From positions 2,728,001 through 2,792,000 of the forward strand of contig CP107049.1 of assembly GCA_025736915.1 (NCBI GenBank): DNA of 64,000 bases, written 5' to 3'. The stretch is from Acinetobacter nosocomialis (GTDB lineage Bacteria > Pseudomonadota > Gammaproteobacteria > Pseudomonadales > Moraxellaceae). Position 1 is the first letter of the stretch. Every line of letters begins with the position of its first letter. The notes under the pieces are model-generated. The model was not told the DNA's origin. It searched no databases and saw only the letters and a program-made list of their open reading frames with translations. The translations under genes were made by a program, and so were the position numbers. This document shows positions 30,997 to 42,526 of the stretch, one piece after another.

Positions 30997-31869
30997 ATGC
31001 AATTTAAATATACTTTTGGCGTTATCAGTTTATGTAGCGCTTTATTTTTGGTTGGATGTAACGACGACCATTCAACAGTGTCCCAAACAACGACAGTTGA
31101 AGAGCAAAAACAGAAATTACAACCGATTATTATTCAAGGCGCCTTACCTGTAGAGTCAAAACAGATGGCATCTAAATTACAGAATGTGACTGTTGAAACA
31201 ATAGGAGGGTGGACTTTCTGGAAAGGAACTCACAATGGCTATCCAATGATTATTTCTAAAACCCGCATGGGTATGAGTAACTCTGCCGCGGCAACAGCTC
31301 TAGCCATTGAACGTTATAAACCGATTGCGATTATTAATCAGGGGACTGCAGGCGGTCACGACCCAGATCTACACGTTTACGATATTGTTCTAGGAAAATA
31401 TGCGACCAATATTGGTGCGTTTAGAACGCCTAAACAACCATTAGGAGCTGGATCAAATTCACTCACTTGGGTTGAAGCATTTGATGTATTGCCAACAGAT
31501 GAATCAGACCCAGAACCTATTGCAATTCGCAAATTTGAAGGCGATAAAGAATTATTAATGGCGGCACATAAAGTTCGTTATGACAAAGGTGAAGTAGTCG
31601 AAGGGACGATTGGATCGGCAGATGTTTGGAATAATGAGCTTGATCGTATTCAATTTTTCCATCAACGTTACGGTACCTCTGTTGAGGAAATGGAAGCAGC
31701 ATCGGTTGCACAAATCGCAAGTCAGTTTAATGTTCCTTTTTTAGGAATTCGAATTTTATCTAATAATATTACCAATAATGGAGCGTATGACCCAGGTACT
31801 GGAGAGGCTTGCCAAGACTATGTGCTTAATGTCGCTGAAGAATATATGAAATCTAAACTAGCAAAATAA
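30997..31869 (+). CDS. Lipoprotein with MTA/SAH nucleosidase-like phosphorylase fold
   Basis: A 290-residue exported protein. A signal peptide ends at the lipobox L-V-G-C (Cys 21). The rest is a PNP/UDP phosphorylase domain resembling MtnN: G-A-L-P-V-E-S near residue 49, G-T-A-G-G near residue 118 and E-E-M-E-A-A-S-V-A near residue 230. The strand that normally carries the catalytic Asp (R-x-I-S-D in MtnN) reads R-I-L-S-N-N here, so the nucleosidase reaction may be altered or lost. An AGGTGAG ribosome site supports the start. A role in periplasmic nucleoside handling is inferred. Confidence 0.78.
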   Translation: MQFKYTFGVISLCSALFLVGCNDDHSTVSQTTTVEEQKQKLQPIIIQGALPVESKQMASKLQNVTVETIGGWTFWKGTHNGYPMIISKTRMGMSNSAAATALAIERYKPIAIINQGTAGGHDPDLHVYDIVLGKYATNIGAFRTPKQPLGAGSNSLTWVEAFDVLPTDESDPEPIAIRKFEGDKELLMAAHKVRYDKGEVVEGTIGSADVWNNELDRIQFFHQRYGTSVEEMEAASVAQIASQFNVPFLGIRILSNNITNNGAYDPGTGEACQDYVLNVAEEYMKSKLAK

Positions 31870-34217: not shown

Positions 34218-34412
34218 TAAAAAATGATATAAAATGATCAATAATTGATTTGTTTCTTTGAGTTGTATCACACAATTTAAATGGACTTAAATCATAAAAA
34301 ATCAGATATCGGCGTTTCTTTGTTTATTCAATTTAAGATTAGATTAAAGAAAGGGAAGCCAAATAAAAAGAAATTAAATTAGATTATGCCCCCAAGGATA
34401 CGGAGGTCGGTC

Positions 34413-35891
34413 ATGCGACAGTTTAAGTCTCTTCATTTAGCTATTCTAGCACTTGGAAGTTTATGCTTTTCTTCAGCTTATGCTACGTCTACCTTAGTTC
34501 CAATGTCTGATGCTGAACTATCTGCAACTCGTGGCCAAGCGTTAATGAGTATGTCTTATATTGCACCTACTGATTCGGCAAACTTGGAGAAACTACGCGA
34601 TAACAGCAGTAATATTGGTTTTTATAAATTAGGAATGGAAGCCCAGTTAGAAATCAATACTAATATTAGAAAACTTCAGTTGGGCTGTGGTGGTGTAAAT
34701 GGGGCTGGTGGTTGTGATATCGATATTGATAATTTAAGTTTAAGTGGACAAAATTTTGATACCAATGGGAACCCATTGCCCATGTCTAATGAAGATCGTG
34801 CCTCATCTTCTGCAGTATTAACGAATCCATTCATTGAATTTGCTGTTAAGAACCCAACCTCAGCTTCAACACGTGAAGTAGTTGGTTTAAGGCTAAGTGC
34901 TGAAAAATTTATTGGTTTATTAACGGCAGGTACTGAAAATACAACGACCCCGAATGGGATCAACTCCATTTCTGGTTATATGAAGGTTCAGTCTGACAGT
35001 AGTGGTTTGATTAAAGGTTATGCTACAACTTCGGCTACTCGAGATAATTTATATGGAGCAAATGCAGTAACAGGCCGATTGCAGGCTTTGGGGTTGGGTG
35101 GTGCTGCTGAGGTAAGTTTTATTACTTCTGATGGTGGATTTAATATTCCGGGTATTCAAAATAACTATTTTGAAATTGCGCCCATTCAAGTTAATGGTAA
35201 TCGGGTTACCTCAAAAGTTTTATCTGCTCCAGTAAAAGTCCCTAATATTTATGTAGGACATAGCAGTTCTTATCCAGTGGATGGTACTGTGCAATATAAT
35301 GCAGCAGGCCCACATGATCCAGCTTATCCTGAACCAACAGGCATTTACACTCAAGGCGGTAGAGTAGAAGCTACAGTAACAGACTGTAGCTTATTAGCAT
35401 GTGTCATTGCGGGTAAAGGTGCTAAATTCCCGAATGTATATATGAATGGTACCATTTCAAATATTACTGCAAATTTAAATTTAACCCAGTCATTGGGTCT
35501 TATTCATAATTTACCAATTAACTCGCCAATGTATCTGGCACTGCAAAATCAAATGTTGCAGTGGCCTGGAGCAAAAGCAGATGACGTAGCCCAAAAGGGC
35601 TGGTGGATGTCTTTTGCAAATCCAGTTAATGTAGGTAACATCATTCCACAAGATGCAATTGATATTTCACCATTATTCCCGCAAATTTCAACTGCTGTTT
35701 CTGCATATTTACAAGCTAATCCTGCTCAAACTTCTGACTTGGGAGGTTTGTTAAAACTAGGGGATCTGGATGTAAATATTGGTACGATTGATTTAAAAAA
35801 TAGCCCACTTACACTAAATTTAAGTAATTTACAGTTAACGAATCAAAACTTTAAACCAAACTGTCATGGTACGAATTTAACCTTTTGTTAA
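34413..35891 (+). CDS. Exported surface-family protein A, 492 residues
   Basis: First of five related exported proteins. The ATG chosen follows an ACGGAGG site nine bases upstream; a frame opening 27 bases earlier would spoil the signal peptide. Residues 1-24 are a signal peptide ending S-A-Y-A. The family motif M-S-D-A-E-L-S-A-T-R-G-Q follows, but lacks the usual G-x-G ending. The rest is Asn/Ser/Thr/Gly-rich with beta-strand periodicity. Cys pairs occur as C-x8-C near residue 91 and C-x4-C near residue 330, and the last nine residues are C-H-G-T-N-L-T-F-C. I relate it to DUF6160-type proteins from memory. Function unknown; an outer-membrane or surface location is inferred. Its own terminator follows. 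Confidence 0.7.
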   Translation: MRQFKSLHLAILALGSLCFSSAYATSTLVPMSDAELSATRGQALMSMSYIAPTDSANLEKLRDNSSNIGFYKLGMEAQLEINTNIRKLQLGCGGVNGAGGCDIDIDNLSLSGQNFDTNGNPLPMSNEDRASSSAVLTNPFIEFAVKNPTSASTREVVGLRLSAEKFIGLLTAGTENTTTPNGINSISGYMKVQSDSSGLIKGYATTSATRDNLYGANAVTGRLQALGLGGAAEVSFITSDGGFNIPGIQNNYFEIAPIQVNGNRVTSKVLSAPVKVPNIYVGHSSSYPVDGTVQYNAAGPHDPAYPEPTGIYTQGGRVEATVTDCSLLACVIAGKGAKFPNVYMNGTISNITANLNLTQSLGLIHNLPINSPMYLALQNQMLQWPGAKADDVAQKGWWMSFANPVNVGNIIPQDAIDISPLFPQISTAVSAYLQANPAQTSDLGGLLKLGDLDVNIGTIDLKNSPLTLNLSNLQLTNQNFKPNCHGTNLTFC

Positions 35892-35909
35892 TTGTAAGCA
35901 ATTAGCTTG

Positions 35910-35943
35910 AGCTGATTTTCATTCATCGGAAAATTAGCTTTTT
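35910..35943 (+). terminator. Terminator of surface gene A
   Basis: 11-bp stem AGCTGATTTTC/GAAAATTAGCT (one G-T pair), 8-base loop and five T. The loop contains part of the shared CATTCATCGG element, so this hairpin and the next promoter region overlap. Confidence 0.7.
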
Positions 35944-35958
35944 ATGCGCTTTCTTTTG
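35920..35958 (+). promoter_or_regulatory. Upstream element shared by the surface-protein units, copy 2
   Basis: CATTCATCGGAA (35920-35931) is identical to copy 1, and TTTCTTTTG (35950-35958) follows at nearly identical spacing. The first block would be centred about 64 bases before the start site predicted from the promoter that follows, a usual place for an activator. Confidence 0.5.
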
Positions 35959-35983
35959 CATTTGTGCAAATATTCCGCATAAT
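35955..35983 (+). promoter_or_regulatory. Predicted sigma-70 promoter of the surface B-C-D operon
   Basis: A -35-like TTTGCA and a -10-like CATAAT are separated by 17 bases. The start site would be near 35990, giving a 5' leader of about 130 bases. Confidence 0.5.
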
Positions 35984-36030
35984 AGAAATGTGGAAAAGTT
36001 GGCAATATCTATTTAGATTTGCCTTCTGGT

Positions 36031-36058
36031 CTAAGGTGAAAAGGATATATTCACCTAG
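36031..36058 (+). promoter_or_regulatory. Leader hairpin upstream of surface gene B
   Basis: CTA-A-GGTGAA pairs with TTCACC-TAG around a 9-base loop, with one bulged A. It lies inside the predicted leader, 65 bases before the start codon, and has no T-run, so it is not a terminator. It may be a post-transcriptional control element or an mRNA stabiliser. Confidence 0.4.
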
Positions 36059-36122
36059 CATCAAGGATTGTTAAAGAAAAATAAATATGGTGCACGGCAT
36101 CGTATAAAACAGGAAGGTCAAG

Positions 36123-38165
36123 ATGACTACACTTAATTATACGGTAAGGTTTCAAAAAACCGTTTTGGCAAGTTTAATTGGTCTTTTCATAAGCCAATCG
36201 AGTTTCGCTCTTGAAGAACTTTCTGATGCCGGTTTAAGTGAAACTACTGGTGAAGGTATCGCTATTTTACCTCAAAATACTTATATGGTATTTCGTGGGG
36301 CAGGTGCGAACGAAACCGCAAGTCAAATTTTAACTGACCGTACTAAAGATACAGGTTATATCAATTATGTACCTGTTGGGCCGTTAAGTATGACGGCGGC
36401 AGATACCAATAAAAATGGTACGATTGATTCTGGTGACCGTGCAGTAGGTAAAGCTGATATTTTTCTTTATGGCTTAGCTCTTTCTAAATCTGATAACGAT
36501 ACTAATAGCCGTCTTGCATCTACCGATACTGCGGCCGCGATTTCGAGTTGGGGTACTGCTGTTAATCCATGGATATTCAAAGTAGCTACTCAGAACCTTG
36601 TACCTAATTTTAGTGCTGCTACATGTAGTGGCGCGAGTGATCCTTCTTGCCAAGTAACGTATTTAGCCTTAGAAGCACCTTTATATGAGGTAGGGACAAG
36701 AGATACGGCAGGGCTTGATGCATATAAACTTAAATTAGGTTTATGGTCAGATATCTTTGTTCGCAATCCAAATAAAATTAATGGTGCGACAGATCAGTTT
36801 AATTATGGCGACTCAAATGGTTTGATTGGTACAAGTAGTGATGCAAGTCGTGCGAATCGGTTACGTTTACAAGGTATCTGGAATAATTTTAGTTTAAATG
36901 GTAGCCGTCTACAGCTCTTCCAAACTTTGGGAGGTGCGACATCCGCAAATGGATTGAGTCCATTTTATAATAATACTCTAGGCTTCGCAGGTGTTGTGCG
37001 TTTAAATAGTGGTGATGCCTCTAATTTGAGAGCAACAATTACTTCAAATACTCCAACAACGACAGTAGGTCCATGGGTAAATCGTTATAGTACTCAATAT
37101 ACTGGTGCGCCTAGCAATAGTTCACCAAGTTCAGATTGGTTATATCGTATTCGCAGCCAGACTACTACGGTTACTTCAACTGGATCATGGACTGCTCCAA
37201 CAGATAGTGCAATGGATAATGTACTGCGGTTGAGTACTCGTGAATCTGGCACTGGGCAAGGTAATCTCATTACTCCTGCTATTAATGGTGGGCTTGCACC
37301 AACCTTCGATGCAAACGAAGGTTTATATCTTTATAATCCGAATATTAATCTTGTGTTAGGTTCTTTATACCAACCACTCGTTTTAAGCTCAGATGGTAAA
37401 AACTTTAGTTTAGAGCTTGCACGTATTCCGAATAAGCCAGAAATTTATAAGAAAATCTATACTGACTACACTGGAACAGATAGTACTTATCTTGGTTCTA
37501 CCTGTAATGTTTATCAATGCGGTACCAATGTAACCTTAGGAGGTAAAACTTATCAAGGTTCTAGTGCAACGCATAGTAGTATCTCAATCGGTTCAACTGT
37601 TTATAACTCGACAAATAATACATTAGAAGCCTTTAAAGGGAACAATACTCAAGATGCAGTAGGTATTTCATTTGGGAAATTACCAACAGGAACGGTTGCT
37701 GCTGTAACACAAGTTAAAAATTTCTATCAATTACAAAATCAGGAACGACGTGGAGGCAGCTATAGTTGTGGATTTTTAAACTTAGGAACTTGTTATGACA
37801 CATGGCAATACCGTACAGCATCAGGTTGGACGGGAAATGCTGGCTCAGGCTTAAGATTTGATTCTCAAGGAGCAAACTGGGCGAATATTGATAGTACCTC
37901 TTATTATAATCCGACGACTAACACAACAGGTTATACCACTACCGATGCAGGGAATGGGGCTCAGTTTGTAGTACCAAATGGTACACCTTTACCTGATGCA
38001 CTTTACAATAATGGGCGTTGGTATACGACTACACCAAATGCAGATGTGAACACTTATAAATTATCAGGAGCACAAATTAGCTCTTCAATTAGTAATAATA
38101 TGGGTTCAGCAGTCATTGATGGTGTTTTAATCCAACATTTAAAACTCACCACAAAAGGTCTATAA
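36123..38165 (+). CDS. Exported surface-family protein B, 680 residues
   Basis: Second member and first gene of a three-gene operon. The ATG follows an AGGAAGG site. A signal peptide (residues 1-29, ending S-S-F-A) is followed by the family motif L-S-D-A-G-L-S-E-T-T-G-E-G-I, with Glu in place of the usual Gln. The body is very rich in Asn, Thr, Ser, Gly and Tyr. Cys pairs: C-x6-C near residue 178, C-x4-C near residue 461, C-x7-C near residue 552. No transmembrane helix apart from the signal is seen. A D-T-N-K-N-G-T-I-D-S-G-D stretch near residue 94 resembles a calcium-binding loop. Function unknown; secreted or outer-membrane location inferred. Confidence 0.7.
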   Translation: MTTLNYTVRFQKTVLASLIGLFISQSSFALEELSDAGLSETTGEGIAILPQNTYMVFRGAGANETASQILTDRTKDTGYINYVPVGPLSMTAADTNKNGTIDSGDRAVGKADIFLYGLALSKSDNDTNSRLASTDTAAAISSWGTAVNPWIFKVATQNLVPNFSAATCSGASDPSCQVTYLALEAPLYEVGTRDTAGLDAYKLKLGLWSDIFVRNPNKINGATDQFNYGDSNGLIGTSSDASRANRLRLQGIWNNFSLNGSRLQLFQTLGGATSANGLSPFYNNTLGFAGVVRLNSGDASNLRATITSNTPTTTVGPWVNRYSTQYTGAPSNSSPSSDWLYRIRSQTTTVTSTGSWTAPTDSAMDNVLRLSTRESGTGQGNLITPAINGGLAPTFDANEGLYLYNPNINLVLGSLYQPLVLSSDGKNFSLELARIPNKPEIYKKIYTDYTGTDSTYLGSTCNVYQCGTNVTLGGKTYQGSSATHSSISIGSTVYNSTNNTLEAFKGNNTQDAVGISFGKLPTGTVAAVTQVKNFYQLQNQERRGGSYSCGFLNLGTCYDTWQYRTASGWTGNAGSGLRFDSQGANWANIDSTSYYNPTTNTTGYTTTDAGNGAQFVVPNGTPLPDALYNNGRWYTTTPNADVNTYKLSGAQISSSISNNMGSAVIDGVLIQHLKLTTKGL

Positions 38166-38180
38166 GAGGAGGATAATGCG

Positions 38181-38906
38181 ATGAAAAAAATAACTGCTTT
38201 ACTCCTTACTCTTTGTGCAACTGCGACTCATGCAGAATTACAAACTTTGGACAACGACGCTTTACAAGCCATTAATGGCCAAGCAGGTGCTGACTTGTCT
38301 TTAATGCTCAATTTAAACCAAACCAGTAACAGCATATTTGATAATGGTAGTGGTGGTGTCTGTGAAAACGTAGAGTTCTGTCATATTGGTTTAGCGATTA
38401 ATAAACGTTTTGTGCAAGCAGATGCAACTAAGCCAAGTGGTTGGGCTGAAAATAGTGATAGTGGTAATAAGCTTTGGTTGGTGTTTAAAGGTGTACAAGG
38501 AACTTTAAACATTCAAAAAATGGGTTTGGATGGTGCTGATTTGAAGTATCTTGATAAATCTAATACCGAAATTATAAAACCTGCTATTCAACTTAGTTTT
38601 AGTGCAGCACAACCCATTTTAATTCGTAACTTTGGTTTTAATGCTTTATCCATTGAGCAAGATAACTTTACAAGTTCAACAACGACCCAAGGTTCGAGTA
38701 CGAATATGTATGATTATGCATATTTCAAAAAACCAACGTATGCGGCGACTGCAAACAGTGCAACTCAGCAAGTAGCTACGGCGACACCTTCAGCCTACGA
38801 CTATGGACGTGAAACAGGTTTTATGGGTTTAATGATGAACGGCAACTTGGCTATTCAAGGAAAAGTCATGGTGTTTAGCTGTGATGGTAGCCATCCCCGT
38901 TGTTAA
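38181..38906 (+). CDS. Exported surface-family protein C, 241 residues
   Basis: Shortest member, 15 bases after gene B with a strong GAGGAGG site. A signal peptide (residues 1-18, ending T-H-A) is followed by L-D-N-D-A-L-Q-A-I-N-G-Q-A-G-A-D-L-S, a clear version of the family motif. C-x5-C near residue 56 precedes a beta-strand stretch, and the protein ends with C-D-G-S-H-P-R-C, resembling the cysteine-closed end of protein A. No catalytic motif is visible. Placement between B and D suggests the three products act together. Confidence 0.7.
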   Translation: MKKITALLLTLCATATHAELQTLDNDALQAINGQAGADLSLMLNLNQTSNSIFDNGSGGVCENVEFCHIGLAINKRFVQADATKPSGWAENSDSGNKLWLVFKGVQGTLNIQKMGLDGADLKYLDKSNTEIIKPAIQLSFSAAQPILIRNFGFNALSIEQDNFTSSTTTQGSSTNMYDYAYFKKPTYAATANSATQQVATATPSAYDYGRETGFMGLMMNGNLAIQGKVMVFSCDGSHPRC

Positions 38907-38938
38907 CGGTTAATGTAGATTTCAAAGGAACTGAAGTG

Positions 38939-41350
38939 ATGAACAAAAATAAAGAAAGTCACGGCTCAAAGTTTATTTTAAATACATTAACAGCCAGCAT
39001 GTTGTTAGTGAGTGGACAAGTTTTTGCTTTAGAAGCTTTAACCGATGCCGATTTGAGTGCAGTCAATGGTCAAGATGGGATCTCGATTCAAACGACTTTC
39101 AACGAGATTAATGTTGATAATGCTTACTGGGATGACCATGCAGGCACGCCAACAAGTGCTGATCAGGTTTTAAGAGCTCAAGCGAGCGGTGTAAAAATAC
39201 AAAAAAGTAATGCCTCTACACAAGCTTTAGGAACGAACTACCGTTTAGATGTGGGAAGTAATACGACTACAGGTAAAGCTGGTGTCGATTTTTCTATGCA
39301 AAGCAGCCCATCCCTCATTACTGTAAATAGCGTTAAGGTTTGTAATAGTTCCGCTACATGCTCACCTACATTAGGGCAGTTGGCTATCCAAACAACTTCA
39401 CCTTTAAATTTAGCATTGACTACTCAAGACGGTTTATTTAGCCCAAATAGCCAGTCAAATATGACATTGGGTATAAATAACGCAAATATTTATTTGGGGC
39501 AATTAGATGCCCGTAATCAGCTCAACCAACTAATTTTAAAGAATTTTAACTTTAATTTTGTTGGTAAAGGAGTCATGTTTATTGACCCTATTCGTGGTAT
39601 GGTTTTACAAACGAATACCGGAACAAATGTAGCTGCGGTTGGGCAAACCCCAAATAGTACATATGGCTATGTCGATTTTAATCGGGTAGCCGACTCAGCT
39701 TCTGGTTTAACAGCGGGTACTTATGTTGATAGCAATGGTAAAGTGACTAATTCGGGTCTAAACATTGAAGTAATGCTTAGTTCCAATGTAGATAAAACCA
39801 ATCCTTATGGATTAGATGCTACCAATACGCCGCAAAATTCAAAAGGTTTAATCCGGCTTGGTGCAAGCGGACGTATGGTAAATAGTTATTTACAAGTCCG
39901 TGGTATGGATGGCTCTTCAGACACCACAACCCTAGGTACTGCAAATACTGCTTCGGGCACCAGTTCAAGTAATAGTATTTTGGGTAATACTGGAATTGCC
40001 TTTCGTATGAAAGGTGAATTCACTAAAGATAATGATTCAATGCTAGGGGCCGATGGCAAAGCCACGACTTTAGAAATTGGTGGGGCAGGGCTGAACGCTT
40101 ATGGCTTTGAGTTTGGTAATTTAACGGGACTTAACTCGGCGACGCGTGGTTATTTTGACAGTGGAAATATTTATCTAAATCTTGCTGATACAAAAACCTT
40201 ATTAATGCCAAATAATGCGACATTAAATAGTATTCGTTTAGGATCTGGTACTTTAACGACAAGTGCCGATTATCAACATAATATTCACCGTGATGCGGTT
40301 ACAAATCCATTTAGTTTAATTCTTGCGATGCGTGGAGCGGAGTTTCAAGCATTTTCAAGACGAGGACGTTTTACCACAAGTGCGAATGTCGCTGCTGCAA
40401 ATCAATTTGCAGATAATGGTTTAAGTAACCAGTGGGGCTTGGCTTTACCTTTTTATAATTTAAATGCCAATGCAGCAGTTTATGGGGTAGATGCACTTGC
40501 GAATAGCGCTTTTTACTATACAAAAGATGCTAATGGTAGACCCGTTCAGAATGCTGTAGGTACCTCAGGAACGACTTCGCGTTTAGGATTTGGCGTTGCT
40601 GTTGGCACAACAGGACGTGATGCAGGCGGTACAAAAACAACTTCAATTTTATTAATTGATGGTTCTCCAAATGCCAATAATGCGGGTAATCCTACCGACT
40701 ATTACATGGGCTTACGTAATATCGATATGTTCCTCAAAGGTAATGGCACTATCGGTTTAGAAAATGGCAGTTTAAATATCGGTTTAAAAGATATGTTACT
40801 TGCCTTATCAACTGAAATTGCAGCGGGTTATTTACCGGGCGCTAAATATAAAACTTGTCCGGCAACAGGATCTTGTACTTCACCAATTGATAACTTTGCC
40901 AGAAATAATGATGTCTTATTTGGTCTTAAACTACGCTTAGGCGGTGATTTAAATTTATCAATTGTGCCAAACAGTTCAATTGCTGATGGTAGTGCGCTCA
41001 CTGTTTTGGGTGATTTTACAATGCCTGCAACAGCAACTGGAAACTCAGTCCAAATTAGTGATCCGATTGATGGCTCTGCAATTGGTTTTGAGAATATGAC
41101 TGGTAAGCTTGCGTTTAACACGGCATTAGTTGTTGGAAAAGACAGCGCGAGTGGACTAGGTAAGGTTGGTGTAAATACCGCAGTGTATTTTAACCCTGAT
41201 AAGAACATTGATGGTGCCTTACGAGTTAAAGATATTAATTTCTATCCACCTTCAACAGGGGCAGGCGCACGTTTAGGTGAACTTGCAATTACTGGTGGAC
41301 GTTTAAATAGTAGCTTCAGTATTGTGCCGAGAAATGGTGCTTTTAACTAA
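38939..41350 (+). CDS. Exported surface-family protein D, 803 residues
   Basis: Largest member and last gene of the operon. The ATG used follows an AAGGA site and starts 32 bases after gene C; a frame opening at 38900 would overlap gene C. A signal peptide (about residues 1-33, ending V-F-A) is followed by L-T-D-A-D-L-S-A-V-N-G-Q-D-G-I-S-I, the fullest form of the family motif. C-x5-C pairs lie near residues 136 and 639. The sequence is Asn/Gly/Thr-rich with repeated strands such as G-L-x-N-x-x-x-x-L and few charged clusters, suggesting an extended beta structure. A strong terminator follows eight bases after the stop. Function unknown. Confidence 0.7.
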   Translation: MNKNKESHGSKFILNTLTASMLLVSGQVFALEALTDADLSAVNGQDGISIQTTFNEINVDNAYWDDHAGTPTSADQVLRAQASGVKIQKSNASTQALGTNYRLDVGSNTTTGKAGVDFSMQSSPSLITVNSVKVCNSSATCSPTLGQLAIQTTSPLNLALTTQDGLFSPNSQSNMTLGINNANIYLGQLDARNQLNQLILKNFNFNFVGKGVMFIDPIRGMVLQTNTGTNVAAVGQTPNSTYGYVDFNRVADSASGLTAGTYVDSNGKVTNSGLNIEVMLSSNVDKTNPYGLDATNTPQNSKGLIRLGASGRMVNSYLQVRGMDGSSDTTTLGTANTASGTSSSNSILGNTGIAFRMKGEFTKDNDSMLGADGKATTLEIGGAGLNAYGFEFGNLTGLNSATRGYFDSGNIYLNLADTKTLLMPNNATLNSIRLGSGTLTTSADYQHNIHRDAVTNPFSLILAMRGAEFQAFSRRGRFTTSANVAAANQFADNGLSNQWGLALPFYNLNANAAVYGVDALANSAFYYTKDANGRPVQNAVGTSGTTSRLGFGVAVGTTGRDAGGTKTTSILLIDGSPNANNAGNPTDYYMGLRNIDMFLKGNGTIGLENGSLNIGLKDMLLALSTEIAAGYLPGAKYKTCPATGSCTSPIDNFARNNDVLFGLKLRLGGDLNLSIVPNSSIADGSALTVLGDFTMPATATGNSVQISDPIDGSAIGFENMTGKLAFNTALVVGKDSASGLGKVGVNTAVYFNPDKNIDGALRVKDINFYPPSTGAGARLGELAITGGRLNSSFSIVPRNGAFN

Positions 41351-41357
41351 TAAAGAG

Positions 41358-41380
41358 AAGTGGCGATATCGCCACTTTTT
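41358..41380 (+). terminator. Terminator of the surface B-C-D operon
   Basis: Perfect 10-bp palindrome AAGTGGCGAT/ATCGCCACTT followed by T-run. It forms a stem with a small effective loop. Confidence 0.9.
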
Positions 41381-41413
41381 ATAAAAAATTTATTTTGAAT
41401 GTGATTGGATTTG

Positions 41414-41467
41414 CATTCGTCGGGTTATAGGGATAATTGTTTTGTACTCATCTATTATTCTGATAAT
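41414..41467 (+). promoter_or_regulatory. Degenerate copy 3 of the shared element and promoter of gene E
   Basis: CATTCGTCGGGT differs from copies 1 and 2 at A-to-G positions. A TTTTGT box (41440-41445) and GATAAT (41462-41467), 16 bases apart, form a plausible promoter 44 bases before gene E. Confidence 0.4.
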
Positions 41468-41510
41468 CTGAACAAATAATAAACGTTTGTCTCTTAAGGA
41501 TTAGAGCAAC

Positions 41511-42464
41511 ATGAAAAATAAAAATATAGTCTGCTGGTTATTATTTGCCAGTAGTTCAAGTGTTTTTGCGATGCAACCATTAGATGATCAAAGTCTTTCA
41601 GCAACGACGGGTCAAAATGGTTTAACGCTAGGCATTCAGGCCGATAAAGTTAAATTTAATCAAGTCGCCTTGATTGATACCAATGGCATCGCTTCTACCT
41701 CTTACAATAGTAAAGCTGGTCTTGTCATTGCAGGAAACTCTACTAATCCTGTTCCAAGTATAGAATTTATTAAAGCAGCTGTATCGACCAATCCTTCTTT
41801 CAATATCGCTATAGATACCGATGCAGGTGCAGGTAAGCCTTTTGTGAACTTGGCTGTCACAATGGGAAGTGACGTCAATGGTATTCGGCTTACACCATTT
41901 TCAGTTTATTTGGCACCTAATACATCAGTTTCTAGTCCTTCGGATTATACGGTGACTAGTTATGCACCAAAATCAATTTTTAGTTCGGGAACAACAGTAA
42001 ATACAGGCGTGAAAGAACTGATTCGCTCTACTGGAAATTTGGACATTAACTTTGTACAGACCAATAAACCTCGTTTAAACATTCAATTGGGTCATGCTGC
42101 CCAGTCTGTCATGGTCAAATTTGGTGGAGCCATTCAATCGATTTGTTCTGCTGCATCTGGTTGTCCAATTACTTTAGTGTCTGATAATACCGGTGCGAAT
42201 TTTGGATTTAAATTTGCAGGAACAAATTCATCTACAGGATTTGTTCTTGATGGGTTTTATGCTGGAGTTGACCCGACGGGGCTTACTTTTGGCAATACAG
42301 GTGTCTCGAGTAAATTTGATGCGTCGCTTAATAATGTAACTTTAGGAAATGCAGGAATACAAAGTCCAACAACGTTTAATAATTTACCTAATGGGTCTAT
42401 GGGGAGTTTTGGAGTCACGGGTGCTTCGGTAACCGACTTTAAAATGAAAGTAAGCGGTTTTTAA
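41511..42464 (+). CDS. Exported surface-family protein E, 317 residues
   Basis: Fifth member, transcribed as a separate unit. A signal peptide (residues 1-20, ending V-F-A) is followed by L-D-D-Q-S-L-S-A-T-T-G-Q-N-G-L-T-L, a full family motif. A C-x6-C pair lies near residue 205. The chain ends K-M-K-V-S-G-F; a C-terminal Phe after alternating hydrophobic residues is the classical signal of outer-membrane beta-barrels, though other members lack it. Terminators lie before and after the gene. Function unknown. Confidence 0.7.
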   Translation: MKNKNIVCWLLFASSSSVFAMQPLDDQSLSATTGQNGLTLGIQADKVKFNQVALIDTNGIASTSYNSKAGLVIAGNSTNPVPSIEFIKAAVSTNPSFNIAIDTDAGAGKPFVNLAVTMGSDVNGIRLTPFSVYLAPNTSVSSPSDYTVTSYAPKSIFSSGTTVNTGVKELIRSTGNLDINFVQTNKPRLNIQLGHAAQSVMVKFGGAIQSICSAASGCPITLVSDNTGANFGFKFAGTNSSTGFVLDGFYAGVDPTGLTFGNTGVSSKFDASLNNVTLGNAGIQSPTTFNNLPNGSMGSFGVTGASVTDFKMKVSGF

Positions 42465-42490: not shown

Positions 42491-42526
42491 AAAAGAGGAT
42501 GGTTGTATAAACAGCCACCCTCTTTT
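42491..42526. terminator. Bidirectional terminator between gene E and dusC
   Basis: AAAAGAGG..GG.TGT pairs with ACA.CC..CCTCTTTT around a 4-base loop. A- and T-runs occur on both sides between convergent genes. Confidence 0.85.

Follow-up and report, generated by a model that had tools for sequence, protein, structure and literature searches.

A cluster of five genes, here called A to E, lies in a 64,000-nucleotide stretch of Acinetobacter nosocomialis DNA (the window; contig CP107049.1 of assembly GCA_025736915.1, positions 2,728,001 to 2,792,000) and encodes five exported proteins that share an N-terminal leader. The reading that we favor, and hold to be fairly probable, is that these proteins are cargo of FilB, a periplasmic C39 peptidase encoded elsewhere in the same 3.87-Mb genome, which would recognize the leader and probably remove it before the proteins are displayed on the surface. 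C39 peptidases, double-glycine leaders and the Fil and Fap systems are known already; what is new, as far as could be seen, is the combination, namely, a double-glycine-type leader that stands behind a Sec signal, is common to nonhomologous exported proteins and follows a stand-alone C39 peptidase in trans. In excerpts of open-licence papers, we found no account of Fil, Fap or DUF6160 proteins in which a Sec signal is followed by a double-glycine leader.

The five proteins share a leader motif, and their bodies lack detectable homology

The five open reading frames were confirmed at the positions and lengths reported in an earlier sequence-only reading of this DNA; lengths are in amino acids (aa) and distances in base pairs (bp).

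34413..35891, plus strand: gene A (492 aa), whose product has a signal peptide, the leader motif and a body; relatives carry 1 to 4 copies per locus
36123..38165, plus strand: gene B, 680 aa; heads the conserved B-C-D group
38181..38906, plus strand: gene C, 241 aa; starts 15 bp past B
38939..41350, plus strand: gene D, 803 aa; starts 32 bp past C; confident all-beta AlphaFold model (mature region)
41511..42464, plus strand: gene E (317 aa), related to FilA; mature region modeled as all beta
34503..34538, plus strand: leader motif of A; spans positions -12 to -1 (12 residues) and ends GQ
36219..36254, plus strand: leader motif of B; ends GE
38247..38282, plus strand: leader motif of C; ends GQ
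39038..39073, plus strand: leader motif of D; ends GQ; low model confidence
41580..41615, plus strand: leader motif of E; ends GQ; low model confidence

Each protein begins with a hydrophobic signal peptide, whose cleavage site was placed by eye and not with a predictor, and the motif follows 3 to 6 residues on (MSDAELSATRGQAL in A, LSDAGLSETTGEGI in B, LDNDALQAINGQAG in C, LTDADLSAVNGQDG in D and LDDQSLSATTGQNG in E). The consensus first proposed, L-[ST]-D-x-x-L-S-x-x-x-G-Q-x-G, is fitted letter for letter by D, whereas the others are variants of it and B has Glu in place of Gln; the common motif approximates L-x-D-x-x-L-x-x-x-x-G-[QE]. The register behind the Sec signal has Leu at -7, a hydrophobic residue at -12 and Gly at -2; all five proteins show this Gly together with hydrophobic residues at both other positions, and -4 is often hydrophobic too. 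The pair at -2/-1 is GQ in A, C, D and E and GE in B, and the canonical GG or GA does not occur there in the five. Substrates of C39 peptidases carry leaders with a consensus such as LSxxELxxIxGG; the motif matches leaders of this type, and its spacing is that of a double-glycine leader. A strict pattern (positions -12, -10, -7, -2 and -1) is retained in 241 of 265 orthologues overall (A, 93/96; B, 47/50; C, 39/50; D, 40/47; E, 22/22), and other family-conserved positions sit both before and after the pair.

The Pfam family DUF6160 (PF19657; cutoff, 27 bits) is matched by C (31.7 bits), D (33.7 bits) and E (35.4 bits) and weakly by A (14.6 bits); it was not found in B with the Pfam profile. 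The match spans the signal peptide, the leader and the start of the body, and in these five proteins the family marks a shared N terminus, not a common body. The sequence-only reading had linked the motif to DUF6160 and to putative pilus components, a link that proved sound, with C, D and E passing the cutoff and E being a full-length relative of FilA. Profile-profile comparisons of the five families gave N-terminal alignments of 24 to 98 columns, at probabilities between 68.1 and 97.7%. The bodies alone, compared in 10 pairs, gave at most 12.3%, for a 26-column match between D and E; they had been cut with a loose pattern that matched too early in A, so that the A "body" kept its leader, which could only favor a match. 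Common ancestry of the five whole proteins is unsupported by this local comparison of the bodies, and the description of the five as related proteins stands for their N termini but not for their bodies, which have no detectable homology. Given the DUF6160 matches, the N-terminal profile alignments and the retention in orthologues, the motif is beyond chance.

A leader profile searched against the host genome returned only six clear members, the five proteins and FilA, on which it had been trained; one of the 10 rows of the leader profile alignment (A4), from locus L072, is a misplaced stretch without a leader that was retained for the search. A degenerate DNA pattern run on the same genome was uninformative (560 and 568 matches versus 479 and 487 for the control). 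It could be argued that the motif is simply a conserved signal-peptide flank that serves Sec export or signal peptidase and has no dedicated partner, and its place directly behind the signal peptide would suit such a role. Against this, only six clear members were found in the genome, with a profile trained on them, and the register does not vary among the unrelated bodies and goes with C39 peptidases in each of three samples (see below); we regard a mere flank as very improbable.

A further exported protein of 139 aa (L232:1501-1917; G000:C1:3231947) has AQPMTESALSTQTGA behind its signal peptide, ending in GA, and was recovered by the own-genome profile search with an E value of 0.024. It has no Pfam match and, judged from its sequence, is likely a seventh leader protein.

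FilB and the fil locus

The fil locus (FilA, FilB, FilC, FilD, FilE and FilF) lies about 100 kb from the cluster, and FilB (G000:C1:2657440-2658276; 279 aa) ends 104 kb before gene A. FilB matches Peptidase_C39 with 59.7 bits and FapD with 108.3 bits, and among solved structures a single relative was found at E <= 0.01, namely, 6mpz ("Double Glycine Motif Protease domain from AMS/PCAT Transporter"), which aligns with residues 110 to 190 of FilB at 9.4e-6. It has a hydrophobic N-terminal segment and is apparently membrane anchored. It is not fused to an ATP-binding cassette (ABC) exporter; two ABC-exporter models match only over their first 131 positions. In an alignment of 44 rows, Gln68 and Cys74 are present in 39 and His159 and Asp175 in 40, and the five Cys-less rows look like wrong-frame gene calls; by its residues, FilB retains the catalytic set. 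The only other C39 match over the cutoff in the genome is a 178-aa protein with no visible signal peptide. We infer that FilB is the cognate C39 peptidase of the leaders.

FilA, which scores 331.9 bits against its profile NF050077 (cutoff, 220 bits), carries the same signal peptide and leader motif; besides A to E, no further clear member than FilA was found in the genome. In these respects the Fil system (FilA to FilF; NF050077-NF050081 and NF033645) resembles the window cluster, and E is related to FilA over its full length. Unlike FilA, the window proteins fall below the cutoff of the FilA profile (E, 109.3 bits; D, 52.5 bits; B, 18.1 bits) or, in A and C, have no match to it, and they are encoded at a distance from the fil locus; beyond the leader, only E and the first part of D resemble FilA. 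FilC is distantly related to the amyloid exporter FapF (57.3 bits) and FilD is FadL-like. One paper reports that FilA is a subunit of the Tol 5 pilus (PMC11784438). In another, the FilA band was identified by Edman degradation, and the long curved fibers seen when strain Tol 5 grows on triacylglycerol were suggested to be Fil fimbriae (PMC3498257). The lipoprotein FilF, encoded in loci of this type, has been studied as a vaccine candidate. A chaperone-usher or type IV pilus identity was set aside for the window cluster; no such family was among the profile matches of A to E.

Co-occurrence of leader proteins and stand-alone C39 peptidases

Three samples were compared, comprising 274 genomes of the class Gammaproteobacteria, 194 genomes of the order and 149 Acinetobacter genomes; the class and order samples overlap partly. 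A C39 match was taken as stand-alone when it lay in an open frame of at most 400 aa and reached 60 bits (class) or in one of at most 350 aa and reached 50 bits (order). In the class sample, DUF6160 was found in six genomes, all of which have a stand-alone C39 peptidase, compared with 30 of the 268 others (36 in total; Fisher p-value, which like those below ignores shared ancestry, 3.5e-6). The order sample gave 23 of 25 DUF6160 genomes versus 8 of 169 others (5e-21). Within the genus, 120 genomes have both FilB and D, 3 have D only, 1 has FilB only and 25 have neither (5e-24); the lone FilB-only case is fragmentary, with a stop, where a contig ends, and the three D-only genomes (G474, G537 and G558) offer natural tests of D's dependence on FilB.

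These counts bear on the possibility that the five proteins leave by type II secretion or by another route and that the co-occurrence with FilB reflects shared ancestry only. FilF does depend on the type II secretion system (T2SS) and GspN (PMC12802150), and the counts take no account of phylogeny. However, the association recurs in several families and in differing gene orders, with the C39 gene near the motif genes (e.g., L071, L073, L214 and L218), and similar leaders occur beside C39 genes in genomes that have no DUF6160 match; we therefore hold this explanation to be improbable, if less so than a mere flank.

Two genomes of one family (G138 and G251; L109 and L110) have 15 and 17 DUF6160 matches, in small frames (101 to 272 aa) that are scattered across many contigs; each genome also has a single FapD-type C39 match. 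It is possible that many cargo proteins are served by each peptidase in these genomes.

Leaders beside C39 genes in genomes without DUF6160

Thirty C39 loci, taken from 25 genomes in which no DUF6160 match was found, were scored with a matrix trained on the five families of the window. C39 neighborhoods as a whole were available for 30 of the 35 genomes in the class sample that, besides the host genome (G000), have a stand-alone C39 peptidase; G155, G165, G241, G269 and G158 were left out. A score of at least 6 was reached by 27 of 109 signal-peptide-like genes less than 2.5 kb from the C39 gene versus 3 of 89 farther away, all three at distances of 2.5 to 3.7 kb. Column-shuffled matrices gave a mean of 7.9 and a maximum of 26 hits, with none of 300 reaching 27. 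A looser regular expression had found 23 matches near and 8 far with the canonical spacing and 1 to 18 near with other spacings; since this excess was modest, the expression was replaced by the matrix test.

The pair itself was then hidden by restricting the matrix to positions -12 to -3, for 24 of the 30 loci, those with a C39 gene called in frame and with DUF6160 loci left out. Gly stood at -2 or -1 in 16 of 19 hits scoring at least 8 and in 24 of 44 hits scoring at least 4.5, against a background of 0.158; the limit of 8 was picked after the list had been seen, and hence the count at 4.5 is given too. The pairs found in this one register beside C39 genes include GG, GA, AG, GR, GK, GE and GQ.

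At L104:6199-7986, three short exported proteins beside a C39 gene have leaders that end in AG (LSDSALDNITAG, LTDADMDSITAG and LNENQMDSVTAG), a variant with Gly at -1. The genome G046 (L107 and L108) has seven stand-alone C39 matches, and in the stretches covered the adjacent leader proteins end in GR, GY and GD.

Comparison with the Fap system

Fap is a functional amyloid system of Pseudomonas. The FapE protein of one Pseudomonas-type fap operon (L206), which scores 346.4 bits against NF058559, carries LKDQELATLRGR after the signal peptide, in the same register as the window leaders; FapA has a near-motif, and FapB and FapC have no clean match. According to Rouse et al. (PMC5557850), FapE is the only Fap protein with complete N-terminal processing; that paper points to GG and GA motifs in FapE, yet states that the Fap proteins lack canonical C39 sequences. 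A double-glycine motif has also been pointed out in FapF (PMC5135000). The substrate of FapD, the periplasmic C39 peptidase of this system, was called undetermined in papers from 2017 and 2018, and FapE and FapF were presumed to be its targets in work from 2025.

FilB and FilC are distantly related to FapD and FapF, but their scores of 108.3 and 57.3 bits lie below the respective equivalog cutoffs of 330 and 700. FapA, FapB, FapC and FapE have no match among A to E (E up to 1) or among FilA to FilF (E up to 0.1). The Fil system further differs in having the FadL-type FilD and, together with the window, a cargo that is diverse and partly unlinked.

Structure models

AlphaFold models were made for the mature regions of D (29 sequences) and E (16 sequences). 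Both are almost all beta; the mean predicted local distance difference test (pLDDT) value is 87.3 for D and 81.7 for E, and the predicted template modeling score is 0.84 and 0.77, respectively. The earlier description of the bodies as beta structured is upheld for D and E by these confident models, which cover those two proteins only. In E, mature residues 1 to 15, ending at the leader Gln, are below pLDDT 50, with a helix at residues 7 to 13 and strands from residue 17. In D, residues 1 to 4 and 11 to 14 are below 50, with a helix at residues 6 to 10 and strands from residue 16, and block means rise from 48 (residues 1 to 10) through 62 (11 to 20) to 91 (21 to 30). The leader is thus among the poorly predicted parts in both models, and the strands start 1 to 2 residues past GQ.

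Foldseek returned no match for E at E <= 0.001, and its match of D to 4q35_A (8.3e-4) was not trusted (probability, 0.07; template modeling score, 0.06). A second aligner gave crowds of beta-barrels, a resemblance of which no use was made; the best were an autotransporter barrel for E (Z, 5.9; 8.7 Å over 171 residues) and TamA for D (Z, 9.6; 7.1 Å over 201 residues).

A proposed maturation pathway

We envisage that Sec exports the five proteins and that signal peptidase I removes the signal peptide, which would leave at the new N terminus a leader stretch of about 15 to 18 residues (LEALTDADLSAVNGQ in D, for example). This stretch would be a double-glycine-type leader, with a short helix, hydrophobic residues at -12 and -7 (and often at -4) and a Gly-containing pair at -2/-1; FilB would recognize it and probably cut behind the pair, and the beta-rich bodies would pass to the outer membrane or the cell surface, probably with FilC and FilD, as is thought for FilA in Fil fibers. 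We infer recognition from sequence and co-occurrence; cleavage by FilB, the route out of the cell and a part for these proteins in adhesion or biofilm formation are proposals. The motif is probably a processing address for surface proteins. The outer-membrane targeting or assembly signal suggested by the sequence-only reading comes near to this but is not specific; the motif has the double-glycine register and tracks stand-alone C39 peptidases, so it is better read as a leader for processing or recognition.

The likeness to the double-glycine leaders of class II bacteriocins and microcins, which are cut by C39 domains of ABC exporters, lies in the register of the leader and in the matches of FilB to Peptidase_C39 and 6mpz. 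Unlike in those systems, the leader here stands behind a Sec signal, the peptidase is stand-alone, the cargo is of 240 to 800 aa and the pair is GQ or GE.

Several observations weigh against the proposal. The window cluster is unlinked to filB. C39 peptidases usually cut GG or GA rather than the GQ and GE present here, and Ala occupies -2 in some orthologues. Within families, conservation extends behind the pair (D-G in 40/40 D leaders, A-L in about 96% of A), although a simple cleavage site would not require this. Beside the C39 genes of genomes without DUF6160, 7 of 30 loci have no neighbor scoring at least 4, and several of the 27 hits are doubtful by eye. The three D-only Acinetobacter genomes show no FilB match, and two DUF6160 genomes of the order sample, G275 (75% complete) and G327, show no stand-alone C39 peptidase. 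Fold comparison of the D and E models gave no known fold or function. Finally, the peptides seen by Rouse et al. in mass spectrometry over FapA to FapD were taken there as "indicating no processing" (PMC5557850).

Some of these points would be expected if the motif were recognized but left uncut. It would then stay on the mature protein and serve as a docking tag, read either by the FilC/FilD barrels or by the C39 protein in the role of a chaperone, an arrangement close to the targeting or assembly signal first suggested. GQ and GE are not the usual C39 cut site, conservation continues past the pair, FapA to FapD appeared unprocessed in the work just cited, and C39-like domains that only hold their substrate are known. 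On the other hand, FilB retains its catalytic residues, the C38A substitution in FapD abolishes FapC secretion (PMC5557850), and the leader is poorly ordered in the D and E models, with strands directly behind it. An uncut docking tag is the alternative that we take most seriously, though we consider it unlikely, and recognition followed by removal remains our preferred reading.

It may be that the pathway is a general Gram-negative two-step maturation, in which Sec export is followed by the reading of a double-glycine-type leader in the periplasm by a stand-alone C39 peptidase. FilB would then serve in trans the unlinked and nonhomologous FilA and A to E, and perhaps the 139-aa protein at G000:C1:3231947, and the same code would explain FapD and its missing substrate (FapE first) as well as many unnamed operons; we give this wider proposal about an even chance. 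If it is true, a leader code common to FapE and many exported proteins would make the question of the FapD substrate testable with short peptides. It would also give DUF6160 a meaning and FilB a role in the Fil system, and the predicted surface cargo could be listed in Acinetobacter genomes.

Gene layout and neighborhood

A and E are set apart from B-C-D by gaps of 231 bp and 160 bp. Among 67 named loci retrieved with A as the query, B, C and D stand together on one strand in 47, including L142, L144 and L146, where B and C are separated by a copy of A. Gene A itself occurs in 1 to 4 copies at varying places in the 67 loci, and E is found in 22. A. baylyi has A, B, C and D (L199). In other families of the order, clusters combine A-, B- and C-like genes with a long fourth gene at the place of D (e.g., L217, L219, L222 and L225), with not every gene present in each; these D-like genes were assigned by place and length, and their best profile match is E or C (17.0 to 38.5 bits). 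The genome G007 (L072) has such a cluster in part.

Gene A has an alternative in-frame ATG at 34386 and is 100% identical to its counterpart in strain NIPH 2119; the host genome is close to A. nosocomialis. Copies of A of equal length and score are carried by plasmid p1_060092 of A. cumulans (L158) and by the chromosome of the same strain (L149).

Consensus scans of the region gave 9 terminator-like sites versus 6.8 expected, and promoter-like sites were below chance (16 found versus 26.7 expected). Two of the hairpins stand behind genes of the cluster.

41358..41377, no strand assigned: perfect hairpin, followed on the plus strand by a T-run; lies past D
42500..42517, plus strand: terminator-like hairpin after E

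The first of these is possibly the end of a B-C-D transcript. The sequence-only reading had noted no adjacent usher, chaperone, two-partner transporter or sortase gene, and we agree that none is recognizable on reading the open reading frame lists, no search having been made with the neighbors. Upstream, at 30997-31869 of the window, lies a lipoprotein gene (LVGCNDDHS by reading) whose product, on reading, resembles a nucleosidase among the T2SS-dependent lipoproteins described in PMC12802150.

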